From NCBI GenBank assembly GCA_020847045.1, contig JADLCT010000014.1, positions 124,001 to 188,000 of the forward strand: a stretch of DNA of 64,000 nt, in the 5' to 3' direction. The position numbers were made by a program, and so were the translations under genes. The stretch is from Bryobacterales bacterium (GTDB taxonomy: Bacteria; Acidobacteriota; Terriglobia; Bryobacterales; Bryobacteraceae). The notes under the pieces were generated by a model. The model saw only the letters and a program-made list of their open reading frames with translations. It had not been told where the DNA came from and made no database searches. Below, in pieces: positions 1,643-23,106 of this stretch. The number at the start of each line of letters is the position of its first letter. Position 1 is the stretch's first letter.

Positions 1643-2512
1643 CTACCGCGACAACTCGTCCCACAGTCCTGGGAGGGTGCGGTCCCACATCGCCGTCTTG
1701 CAGCACATCCGGAACTCCCCGGTGTGCACCAGCGCCTTGGCCTGGTCCTTCGGCTTGCCTTCCCGAATCAGCTTGCTGATCTGCGCCTGGGCGTTGGCCA
1801 ACTCGGCGTGGAAGGTGGACAAGTCGGACTTCTGCAAAACCGGGCCGCCGTGGCCGGGAATGACGGTCTCAAAGTCCAGTTCGAGCGCCTTGCCGAGCGT
1901 GCCCAAGAACTCGCGGCCATTGCCGCCGGAGGAATAATCGACGATGGGGCCGCCCACGGCGAACATGTCGCCCGTGTGAATCACCTTATGGCCGGGGAAG
2001 TAGTAAACCACGTCGCCGTTGGTGTGGCTGCGGCCGAAGTAGTAGGCCTCGACCGTCTTGCCGCCGAGGTGAATCGCGGCGCGGCTGGTGAAGGTGATGT
2101 TCTGCAGGCCGGGCATCTTTTTTTCCACCATGACGGCGCGCGCATTGGCGTGGGCGAACAGCACGGCGCCGGTGAGTGCGGCGATCTTGGCGTTGCCGCC
2201 GGTGTGATCGCCGTGCAGGTGCGTGTTCAGCACATAGCGGATGGGTTTGGAGGAGATGGACTTCACCTTTTCGAGAATGCCGTCCACGTTGCGCTCGAAC
2301 TTATCGTCGATGAGGATGACTCCCTCGTCCGTGGTGAGCACGCCGATGTTGCCGCCCGCACCGGCGATGACATGGAGATCATCGGCGATCCGTGTGACCG
2401 TCAGCGGCGGCTCGGCCGGAGGCTGTTGGGTCCAGGCGGTGTACAAACCGGCGGCGGCCAGCAGAGCGGCGGCAGGCCGTGCGAACCAGGCGGGGCGGAA
2501 CCGGCGGGTCAT
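1643..2512 (-). CDS. Metallo-beta-lactamase-fold hydrolase, exported
   Basis: 289 residues from the ATG at 2512; the reading frame stays open far upstream, but that extension overlaps the divergent xdhC gene and looks non-coding. A hydrophobic N-terminal segment (about 11-28) suggests a signal peptide or anchor. The core carries the zinc-binding HLHGDH motif at 98-103, followed by HTNGD, HTGDM and PGHGG blocks typical of the superfamily. Family members hydrolyse lactams, lactones, thioesters or other esters, and the substrate cannot be told from sequence. The C-terminal part contains a CC pair (FRMCCKTAMWD). It is divergent from xdhC with about 66 bp between start codons. Confidence 0.85.
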   Translation of the reverse strand: MTRRFRPAWFARPAAALLAAAGLYTAWTQQPPAEPPLTVTRIADDLHVIAGAGGNIGVLTTDEGVILIDDKFERNVDGILEKVKSISSKPIRYVLNTHLHGDHTGGNAKIAALTGAVLFAHANARAVMVEKKMPGLQNITFTSRAAIHLGGKTVEAYYFGRSHTNGDVVYYFPGHKVIHTGDMFAVGGPIVDYSSGGNGREFLGTLGKALELDFETVIPGHGGPVLQKSDLSTFHAELANAQAQISKLIREGKPKDQAKALVHTGEFRMCCKTAMWDRTLPGLWDELSR

Positions 2513-19480: not shown

Positions 19481-20074
19481 TCAGTGCGCCGGCAGTGGGA
19501 CTTCGAAGTAGAAAAGCTCTTCGCCGCTGGCGGCATCCTGCAATCCGGTGATGTAGAGCGTGGCGCCTCCGCGGTGGCCTGTTTGGAAGTAGACAAAACC
19601 GTGGGCGCTTTCGCCGGGCGGCAGCATTTTGGCGGCCAGCGACCGGCCCTCGATCTCAAACGCCTCCAAGGGGTTCTTCGGCCGGCCGCGTGGAATGGGC
19701 AGAGGGCTGGGCGTCATCTTGGGGCGCGTGGGCGAGTTGGCGTACTTCACTTCGGCCGCCGGCGTGGCTTCGATTTTCTGGCGGTTCAGGTCGATGTATT
19801 GGAACAGGGCGCGGTCAAGCCGCACGGCCTTCTTCGAGCCATTCCGGATGGACACCCAGACGGGCAGCACGCCGTAACGGTTCGGATTCACCTTCCCGAA
19901 CGGCGGCTTGCACAGCGCCTCGGTATCGAACGCCTTGGCGGCAATGGTGACATCAGAAATGGTTTGTTTGTCCAACTGATCGGGGTTTGGCGGGGTAAAC
20001 TGATCTTTCTCGCCGATTCCCCATAGCAGGGCGGCGGAGAGTAACAGGCACGCGGCGTTGCGACGGATTCTCAT
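19481..20074 (-). CDS. Small exported protein of unknown function
   Basis: 197 residues from the second of two adjacent ATGs (20074); the first ATG, at 20077, overlaps the start of the divergent kdtA-lpxK gene. A signal peptide at about 1-20 (NAACLLLSAALLWG) is followed by a soluble domain with VLPVWVSIRNGS, a pattern typical of small periplasmic beta-sandwich proteins that describe interactions between attributes. The region ESAHGFVYFQT near the end also looks like a beta-strand. I do not recognise the family. It converges with the cyclophilin gene, with a 9-bp gap. Confidence 0.6.
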   Translation of the reverse strand: MRIRRNAACLLLSAALLWGIGEKDQFTPPNPDQLDKQTISDVTIAAKAFDTEALCKPPFGKVNPNRYGVLPVWVSIRNGSKKAVRLDRALFQYIDLNRQKIEATPAAEVKYANSPTRPKMTPSPLPIPRGRPKNPLEAFEIEGRSLAAKMLPPGESAHGFVYFQTGHRGGATLYITGLQDAASGEELFYFEVPLPAH

Positions 20075-20075
20075 C

Positions 20076-22454
20076 ATGGCACTGTACCGGGCGCTGCTGG
20101 CCGCCGCGTTCCCGGCCCTTCTACTGTATCTTGGGTGGCGTAGTGCGCGTGAGGTTCGCTACTGGCGAAGTCTGGGCGAACGGTTCGGCTACCTGCCGGC
20201 CACTGTGCAACAGACGAGCGATGGGTGTGTCTGGTTGCACGCCGTCTCGGTGGGTGAGGTGCTGACCAGCGTGCGCCTGCTGGAGGCCTTGCGCACGGCG
20301 CTTCCGGGCGTCCGGATGTATGTGTCGGTGTCGACTCTGGCCGGGCGCGCCGTGGCGGATGAAAAACTCTCCGGGCTGGCCGACAAGGTCTTCTTTGCTC
20401 CCTTCGATTTCGTCTTCTCCGTGCGGCGTGTGCTGCGGCGTATGCGGCCGCGCGTCCTGATTGTGCAGGAAACCGAGATCTGGCCCAACCTGTGGAACGA
20501 GGCCAAGCGGGCGGGCGCGGGCCTGGTTGTGGTGAACGGCCGAATCTCGGACAAAGCGTTCCCCAAGTACCGCGCCTTCCGCTGGTTTTTCGGGCCGGTG
20601 TTGCACCTTCCGGACCGGATTCTCGCGCAAGGCCGCATCTCCATGGAACGCTTCGTCTCGCTGGGCGCACCGCCGGACGCCGTGGCCGAGGGGGGAAATC
20701 TGAAGTTCGACTTCCAGCCGTCGAGCGCCGCTGCGCCATCCGCCGTGACGGCGGTGGTGGAGCGCACCCGTCCACGCCATGTATGGGTGGCGGCCAGCAC
20801 CATGCCGCCTGCCGCTGCCGGCGATCCGGACGAAGGTGAAGCCGTGGTGGACGCGTTCCTGAGGCTGGCGGCCACGCATCCTCGACTGCTGCTGATTTGG
20901 GCTCCGCGCAAGCCCGAATTGTTTGACGAGGCCGCCGGGCGGCTGGCCCGTTCCGGTGTGCCATTCCTGCGCCGTTCGCAACTACAAGGGACGGAGGCCG
21001 TGGCTCTGCCTGGCGTGCTCCTGCTGGATTCGATCGGAGAATTGAGCAGCCTCTTTCCGCTGGCCGGAGCCGTCTTCATGGGGGGGACGCTGGCGTCACG
21101 AGGCGGCCACAACATTCTGGAGCCCGCGTTTTCAGGCAAGCCGGTGATCGTCGGGCCGCATATGGAAAATTTCGCCGAGATTGCCGCCGATTTTCGAGCG
21201 GGCGGCGCGGTCATCTCCATTGCGGACGTCGAGGAGCTTGCCCCGGCCGTGACGAAGGCGCTGGGCGAGGGTGACTATGCCAGGACCGTGGGCGAGCGGG
21301 GGCGGGCGTTGGCCGAATCTCGCCGGGGGGCTACGGCGTTGGCGGCCGCTCTCTGCGTGGAACGGTTTGACCAGTCCGTACCGCGACCCGTGAAGCATCT
21401 GGCATCTCGGATGATTCTGGGGCCACTGGCGAGTCTCTGGGCGGCCGGTGTGCGATTGCGCCGCGCCCGGCAGATGGCAAACGCACAGGCATTGCCCAGG
21501 CCGGTTGTGTCCATCGGCGGTCTGGGAATGGGCGGATCGGGGAAGACGCCGATGGCGATTTGGACCGCGGAAGCCCTTCGCGTGACAGGGAGTGAGCCGG
21601 CGTTTCTTACGCGCGGCTACAAACGGCACTCGCTCGACCGGGTACTCGTTCTGGCTCCCGGAGATCAGGCGCCGCCGCGCACCACGGGCGACGAGGCACA
21701 GCTTTTGTTGCAGTCCAGACTGGGCGCCGTGGGAATTTCCGGAGACCGGAGCGAGGCGGGCCGGGCGGTGCTGGACCTGTTCGATCCGGGTGTGTTCATT
21801 CTGGACGATGGGTTTCAGCACTGGCGGCTGCGCCGCGACTGTGACGTGGTGATGATCGATGCGCTGGATCCGTTGAGCGGCGGAGCAGCATTTCCGCTGG
21901 GCCGTCAGCGGGAATCGTTGGAGGCGCTGGAGCGCGCCCATGCCGTGGTGGTGTCCCGGAGCATCCGGCCTTGGCCGGGGCTGGAGCGGCTGCTGCGGCG
22001 CTACACGCGCGCGCCCATGTTCTACAGCCGGTTTGTGCCACGCCGATGGCGGCGGTGGACCGTGCAGGGCGCCGAGGCCGAAACCATTCCGGCATGCGAC
22101 TTTCAGCCAGGCAAGGTGGCGGCGTTTTGTGGGTTGGGTAATCCCGTCTCGTTCTGGAGCACACTGGCCGGCGCGGGAATCCGTCCTGCGCGCCGCTGGA
22201 GTTTTGGCGACCACCACCTGTACCGTCCGGCCGAGATTCGCCGCATGGTGACCTTGGCCCAGACTATGGGAGCAGGGGCCTTGCTGACCACGGCGAAGGA
22301 TGTCCAGAATCTTCCTCCGGAGACTCAGTCGCTCACGCACGCGGCCCCTGTCTGGTGGCTCGAAATCGAGATCGAGGTCGATCGTCCGGACGAGCTGGCT
22401 GGCCTCATCCGGGAGCGCATGGCGGCCGGCTTTCGCAGCCGCACCGGCGCATAA
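20076..22454 (+). CDS. Fused Kdo transferase (KdtA/WaaA) and lipid A 4'-kinase (LpxK)
   Basis: 792 residues. The N-terminal part (about 1-425) is a GT30 Kdo transferase: a membrane anchor near 5-20, ETEIWPNLWNEA, and the acceptor/donor block SRGGHNILEPAFSGKPVIVG near 345-365. The C-terminal part (about 440-792) is LpxK: a P-loop GGLGMGGSGKTP near 480, then FILDDGFQHWRLRRD. The first activity adds Kdo to the lipid IVA precursor, and the second phosphorylates the 4' position of the disaccharide. Both act on the inner face of the inner membrane in lipid A-Kdo synthesis, so fusion puts neighbouring steps in one chain. Start ATG 20076 overlaps the first ATG of the divergent gene. Confidence 0.92.
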   Translation: MALYRALLAAAFPALLLYLGWRSAREVRYWRSLGERFGYLPATVQQTSDGCVWLHAVSVGEVLTSVRLLEALRTALPGVRMYVSVSTLAGRAVADEKLSGLADKVFFAPFDFVFSVRRVLRRMRPRVLIVQETEIWPNLWNEAKRAGAGLVVVNGRISDKAFPKYRAFRWFFGPVLHLPDRILAQGRISMERFVSLGAPPDAVAEGGNLKFDFQPSSAAAPSAVTAVVERTRPRHVWVAASTMPPAAAGDPDEGEAVVDAFLRLAATHPRLLLIWAPRKPELFDEAAGRLARSGVPFLRRSQLQGTEAVALPGVLLLDSIGELSSLFPLAGAVFMGGTLASRGGHNILEPAFSGKPVIVGPHMENFAEIAADFRAGGAVISIADVEELAPAVTKALGEGDYARTVGERGRALAESRRGATALAAALCVERFDQSVPRPVKHLASRMILGPLASLWAAGVRLRRARQMANAQALPRPVVSIGGLGMGGSGKTPMAIWTAEALRVTGSEPAFLTRGYKRHSLDRVLVLAPGDQAPPRTTGDEAQLLLQSRLGAVGISGDRSEAGRAVLDLFDPGVFILDDGFQHWRLRRDCDVVMIDALDPLSGGAAFPLGRQRESLEALERAHAVVVSRSIRPWPGLERLLRRYTRAPMFYSRFVPRRWRRWTVQGAEAETIPACDFQPGKVAAFCGLGNPVSFWSTLAGAGIRPARRWSFGDHHLYRPAEIRRMVTLAQTMGAGALLTTAKDVQNLPPETQSLTHAAPVWWLEIEIEVDRPDELAGLIRERMAAGFRSRTGA
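20081..20086 (-). promoter_or_regulatory. -10-like hexamer 6 nt before ATG 20074
   Basis: Minus-strand TACAGT ends 6 nt before ATG 20074. It lies inside the first codons of kdtA-lpxK. Confidence 0.3.
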
Positions 22455-22469: not shown

Positions 22470-22613
22470 TCAGTTGTGGTGGATGGTGCTCGCCAGGTGT
22501 TGGAGGCGCTCCATCTGTTCCTCTTCCTTCACTGCGCCGGAAGGCGCGGCCTGGCCCTGGTGCGGCACCGTCACCAGACGGAGCAGGCTGAGTTGAAACG
22601 TCATATCGTCCAT
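22470..22613 (-). CDS. Possible small protein (47 residues)
   Basis: From ATG 22613 the frame reads MDDMTFQLSLLRLVTV and ends in STIHHN. Third codon positions are mostly G or C, as in the real genes here, which is the main reason to call it. Upstream in-frame starts at 22637 (ATG ATG) and 22673 (GTG) would lengthen it, but codon use there is not gene-like. It contains a polar Glu-rich stretch (VKEEEQMERL) that could form a helix. It converges with kdtA-lpxK. It would be the first plausible reading frame downstream of the sigma-54-type promoter at 23014-22997. No family recognised. Confidence 0.4.
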   Translation of the reverse strand: MDDMTFQLSLLRLVTVPHQGQAAPSGAVKEEEQMERLQHLASTIHHN

Positions 22614-22854
22614 AAGATTTTCCGGTTCCCTCATCATTGGTTCCCTCACTGGTTCAAGTTTCGAACGGGGCACTCCACGATGCGCAGTCTCCTCAACGCA
22701 CAGTCAAGTAGTCCATTCCGCTCTTCGGTTGTTTCATGCAATTTCTTTAGCGAGAACTTACGCCCCATGCGCTTTCTTACAAGGTGGTCCGTTCCACGCC
22801 GGTTCATCCGGGGTTCCCTGAAAACTTGCCTGATCACTCCCCCTGAGGAATAAG

Positions 22855-22970
22855 GGGCTCAAAGGAGAACGGTTGGGTGGGCCGTCTGGGGTGTGTGATT
22901 GGAGGAAACTTTTCGGTGGGACTTCAACTTCGTAGCGTTCGAGGAGGAGCAACCTTGTTCCTTTGAGCCC
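22855..22970 (-). ncRNA. Candidate structured RNA closed by a 12-bp stem
   Basis: Arms GGGCTCAAAGGA (22855-22866) and TCCTTTGAGCCC (22959-22970) are perfectly complementary. A second helix, GGTTG (22871-22875) with CAACC (22950-22954), follows after a symmetric 4-nt internal loop, so about 17 base pairs close a 116-nt element. The strand is chosen because a strong sigma-54 promoter points into it, with predicted transcription start near 22988, about 18 nt before the stem. A shorter hairpin at 22839-22857 shares bases with the lower arm and would compete with it. It does not resemble SRP RNA, tmRNA or 6S RNA in any motif I can check by eye. It could be a leader rather than a free RNA. Confidence 0.45.
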
Positions 22971-22996
22971 TTCTTTCCTTCATCGCACTCTTGCTA

Positions 22997-23014
22997 ATGC
23001 AAGCCGTGTGCCAA
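22997..23014 (-). promoter_or_regulatory. Sigma-54 (-24/-12) promoter
   Basis: Minus-strand sequence TTGGCACACGGCTTGCAT matches the consensus TTGGCAC-N5-TTGCW in every core position: GG at -24 and GC at -12 with exactly 10 nt between them. The predicted start is near 22988, reading away from the esterase gene into the structured region. An activator site is expected about 100 bp upstream (inside the esterase gene) but cannot be identified by eye. Confidence 0.7.
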
Positions 23015-23106
23015 ACTCAAACTCCTTGATTTTCAGCTCTTGCGTCCATCGCCCGCACTCGCGTATCAGAATGGGACCCGGCCCGGAAGGCGCTGTTTCT
23101 CCTTGA

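Follow-up and report, generated by a model that had tools for sequence, protein, structure and literature searches.

A candidate sigma-54-dependent small RNA gene of the Bryobacteraceae with control sites shared by flagellar genes

The locus and the fold of the RNA

The element lies on the minus strand of a 64-kb stretch of DNA from a member of the Bryobacterales (the window, by which we mean the whole stretch analysed). On the forward strand of the window (20058-22454) is a 798-aa ORF in which a KdtA-type Kdo transferase domain (PF04413) is joined to LpxK (PF02606), apparently a fusion of two enzymes of the lipid A/Kdo pathway. The features of the element, in window coordinates, are the following.

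23062-23078 (-): GGTCCCATTCTGATACG, candidate for the activator site (UAS), with 62 nt between it and the aligned element downstream
22998-23014 (-): sigma-54 -24/-12 promoter, TTGGCACACGGCTTGCA, with a perfect core
22855-22970 (-): stem-closed RNA of 116 nt, from the covariance model and double changes
22959-22970 (-): 5' arm of stem 1, GGGCUCAAAGGA (DNA GGGCTCAAAGGA), pairing with 22855-22866
22855-22866 (-): 3' arm of stem 1, UCCUUUGAGCCC (DNA TCCTTTGAGCCC), pairing with 22959-22970
22950-22954 (-): 5' arm of helix 2, GGUUG (DNA GGTTG), pairing with 22871-22875
22871-22875 (-): 3' arm of helix 2, CAACC, pairing with 22950-22954
22876-22949 (-): open loop, C-rich and G-poor by composition, starting CUCCUC and ending CCCACC
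22839-22857 (-): competing hairpin that draws on the 3' arm of stem 1, seen in the window and in G001, a genome of the same genus
22470-22637 (-): small-protein ORF, 55 aa, MMREPENLMDDMTFQLSLLRLVTVPHQGQAAPSGAVKEEEQMERLQHLASTIHHN, with homologues downstream of the RNA

Comparison of relatives shows that stem 1 and helix 2 form in the predicted transcript. The region has a single reported inverted repeat, and this spans the 12-bp stem closing 116 nt; as the preliminary description had claimed, the stem is exact, and it is conserved in relatives, with the inner 5-bp helix present at GGTTG/CAACC. Across 100 aligned copies of the RNA, 94.7% of cells are paired and compensatory double changes occur at 16 of the 17 base pairs; double-change cells number 223, whereas shuffles give 57 and slid structures no more than 30. 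For helix 2 the paired fraction is 98.6%, with double changes in four of the five pairs. The consensus of stem 1 is near GGCUCAAGGA/UCCUUGAGCC, and in one relative (G002) an A-U pair of this stem has become U-A and another A-U pair G-U, pairing being retained. The folding energy of the window RNA taken singly is no better than that of shuffles (z = +1.19), so the evidence for structure is all comparative.

The hairpin at 22839-22857, which has CCCC in common with the 3' arm of stem 1, was correctly reported as sharing that arm; hairpins of at least 5 bp that do so occur in 36% of relatives versus 14% of shuffled sequences and are not universal, so the attenuator role first proposed for it is tentative. 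A general pseudoknot between leader and loop was rejected, pairing being found in sub-groups only. In sub-families represented by L156, L159, L171 and L174 and by L152, L166, L175 and L181, leader and loop contain complementary segments (ACAGGGC/GCCCUGU or GUGACU/AGUCAC, the leader being 5'), possible pseudoknots confined to these sub-groups.

Promoter, activator site and flagellar genes

The -24/-12 element with a perfect core on the minus strand is present as first described and is kept in relatives; in the window its core is the sole match in 64 kb when up to one mismatch is allowed (0.28 expected). The predicted promoter is presumably active at the element, with a transcript start expected near 22987. 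GG-N10-GC occurs in 100 of 100 aligned copies of the RNA, a result that is partly built in because the covariance search model contains the promoter; strong RNA copies lacking this signature should still have been detected. The distance from the TGC to stem 1 is 27-29 nt in 80 of the 100 copies.

Farther upstream is a palindrome with the core GTTCC-N5-GGAAC (motif form nGTTCCRAWWYGGAACn) that looks like an activator site. The window copy, at 11.8 bits, is a weaker match to the palindrome model than the copy at the same place in G001 (16.3 bits). The palindrome is found upstream of the RNA in 61 of 98 relatives, compared with 1-5 in shuffles scored by the same model; a model retrained on the shuffles finds 12-15. 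Its positions are helically phased at about 10.75 bp (R = 0.57, p < 2e-4; 0.002 on unique positions), which is the expectation for an activator sitting on one face of the DNA. The comparison shows the cis-elements of activation; for the protein itself we infer an NtrC-type enhancer-binding protein that would bind these palindromes, mostly 45-131 nt upstream, and, once bound, would activate sigma-54 RNA polymerase at the -24/-12 site.

A search for the motif together with the promoter led to a gene encoding a sigma factor of the FliA/WhiG family (TIGR02479), present in all 24 genomes examined. The palindrome lies upstream of this gene in 23 of the 24 (random segments, 6.6%), mostly as two or three copies, and is followed 30-300 nt downstream by a sigma-54 site in 19. 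Another match to the motif and promoter precedes flgF-flgG: among 25 upstream regions of flgF, 14 contain the palindrome and 17 a sigma-54 site, and in the window's own genome these stand at -137 and -37, respectively. The occurrence of the palindrome and the sigma-54 site at the RNA, the FliA/WhiG gene and flgF means that the RNA has control sites in common with flagellar genes; the protein that activates the RNA would also switch on the sigma gene of the FliA/WhiG family and, in many genomes, flgF. In the window's genome the palindrome-bearing FliA/WhiG gene and flgF are on different contigs (C54 and C75), so the former may be a paralogue and not the FliA of the flagellar cluster. Nearly all genomes of the family have flagellin, which makes co-occurrence of the RNA and flagellin uninformative within the family.

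At one locus (L204, G028:C3) a divergent sigma-54-activator-like protein (PF00158) is encoded upstream of the FliA/WhiG gene, beside a cluster of activator sites. The GAFTGA loop was not found in this protein, which is a candidate regulator or a degenerate paralogue.

Distribution and the companion small protein

A first covariance model, seeded from three sequences (three genomes), detected the RNA in 56 of 150 genomes of the family at E <= 1. Of 200 genomes of the order, 136 gave a match with a refined model, representing 55 of 75 genera, and all listed matches of this model fall within the window's own family (Bryobacteraceae); both the stem and the promoter are conserved in the relatives searched. 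A covariance search of 297 genomes across the phylum gave no convincing member outside the family, and weak matches elsewhere in the phylum, mostly short and with E values of 0.001-0.01, were taken as chance. Named members among the matches to a combined promoter-plus-RNA pattern belong mainly to Bryobacteraceae/Bryobacterales and other Acidobacteria MAGs; a few matches in unrelated taxa were also attributed to chance. The element is at the same place in two relatives of the window's genus. Between the window and G001 the leader is identical at all ungapped positions, the RNA is 87.5% identical, the small ORF 89.5% and the spacer from RNA to ORF 68%.

The RNA is mostly single-copy per genome. 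Three copies are present in one genome (G030), and in another (L016, G068:C27) tandem copies (2092-2193 and 1759-1918, minus strand) lie upstream of one small ORF. An inverted repeat closing about 116 nt has a superficial likeness to the a1/a2 arms of a retron, which raises the possibility of a mobile or selfish element (a MITE, a retron msr-msd or a phage remnant). Such an origin is highly improbable, given the prevailing single copy, the confinement to one family, the fixed sigma-54 promoter and UAS, and a stem with RNA-type G-U pairs and compensation; inspection of the ORFs for several kb around the window element showed no reverse transcriptase.

No family in Rfam 15 matches the element at the gathering threshold, and no description of a sigma-54 small RNA in Acidobacteriota was found in the literature searched. 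To our knowledge, few regulatory RNAs are known in this phylum, a dominant one in soil. Solibacter usitatus, the source of the Solibacter-1 candidate motif, belongs to the same order as the window's organism. Solibacter-1 was listed as uncertain, from one species only and with no Rfam number (Weinberg 2010, PMC2864571), whereas the present RNA is family-wide and mostly single-copy; the two are set apart by description only. On our best reading, the sigma-54-dependent small RNA of Bryobacteraceae is previously undescribed. We put at roughly 60% the probability that the element is a sigma-54-dependent small RNA gene of the Bryobacteraceae flagellar regulon, usually with one copy per genome; our best reading also gives it, in some genomes, a companion small protein.

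The small ORF reported downstream is real and conserved, although it probably starts not at 22613 (47 codons) but at the ATG at 22637 or 22634, giving 55 or 54 codons. A single-sequence search of relatives found homologues in 12 of 150 family genomes, of which several lie directly after the RNA. An iterated profile detected, in 45 of 100 copies of the RNA, a homologue that follows it on the same strand at a distance of up to a few hundred nt; the reverse strand gave no homologue, and a single match upstream was spurious. The proteins have the common core F-Q-x-[SD]-L-L-[RN]-L, no match in Pfam and none above cut-off in NCBIfam. Another upstream ORF (MNRRGTDHLV..., 53 aa) was set aside; it has no Pfam match, and its spacer is 68% identical to that of G001.

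The gene downstream of the RNA is not constant. In the 55 of 100 copies where the small ORF was not detected, unrelated genes come next, some after intrinsic terminators; terminators scoring at least 25 occur in 15-18% of copies versus 1-2% of shuffled sequences, and in genus g5 strong terminators stand between the RNA and the small ORF. The absence of a detected ORF from these copies, together with the terminators, indicates that the RNA is its own unit and the ORF a frequent companion. The comparison shows that the two are linked in just under half of the copies, where the small protein would probably be made from read-through transcripts. At four loci where the small ORF is missing (L116, L119, L122 and L128) the RNA is followed by ORFs of one kind (MLRIVSLIASATEIV...), which by eye resemble a BtuF-like binding protein.

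The preliminary description had suggested a regulatory RNA or a leader-controlled small protein under an NtrC-type activator, an outline that holds with the amendment that the RNA, about 55% of whose copies have no detected ORF, is a unit in its own right. That the element is mainly a structured 5' leader controlling translation or attenuation of the small protein appears improbable. Such a leader would fit the 45 of 100 copies that have the ORF close by on the same strand, the enrichment of hairpins that use the stem's 3' arm, and the g5 terminators; however, the RNA and its promoter are kept in the roughly half of copies where no small ORF was detected, the conserved loop has no anti-terminator-like partner, and the competing hairpin is found in a minority of copies.

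The open loop and its possible targets

Stem 1 and helix 2 together hold open a C-rich, G-poor loop. Across copies it is 66-83 nt long (median 72), contains 43% C and 10% G, begins near UCCUC, which is enriched, and ends near CCCWCC; no structure beyond that of shuffles was found in it. Its C-rich, UCCUC-bearing composition suggests that it probably base-pairs with the purine-rich translation start regions of target mRNAs, and this pairing would retune translation while flagella are built. In the window's genus (G000, G001 and G002) the loop has an 8-9-nt match to one flagellin leader, a match that is inconsistent among relatives; across genomes, pairing with flagellin leaders varies, and flagellin mRNA is not supported as a universal target.

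In Pseudomonas, CrcZ and CrcY sequester Hfq/Crc through A-rich motifs. The main rival to antisense action has a comparable logic, namely that the C-rich loop acts as a protein decoy (e.g., for Rho or another C-binding RNA-binding protein), and these sigma-54-dependent sponge RNAs (PMC6296734, PMC8871633), together with the unstructured state, constrained length and UCC/CCC blocks of the loop, speak for it. We consider a decoy unlikely, since the most conserved blocks are at fixed ends beside helix 2 and are not evenly repeated, and the loop has no known protein partner. CrcZ/CrcY, which are activated by CbrB (PMC6296734), resemble the present element as small RNA genes under an NtrC-family activator and sigma-54; here, in contrast, the loop is C-rich and the regulon flagellar, differences drawn from descriptions.

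For a small RNA of the flagellar regulon, the closest counterparts are the sigma-28-dependent flagellar small RNAs of E. coli, UhpU, MotR, FliX and FlgO (PMC10578931), which are expressed with that regulon, as the present RNA appears to be. Those RNAs are UTR-derived, whereas the present one would have a separate sigma-54 promoter and activator site, and its two closing helices and large open loop, again judged from descriptions, are unlike them.

The RNA is family-wide, with a clear promoter, an activator site, a probable regulon and an undescribed small-protein family, so that a cultured strain of the Bryobacteraceae would allow a direct test of its role in flagellar control. More tentatively, the locus may be one sigma-54 flagellar unit with a dual output, in which the C-rich RNA, working by antisense pairing, and a small protein matched to it act at the same step of flagellar assembly; if this is true, the unit would represent a regulatory layer not described in Acidobacteriota.
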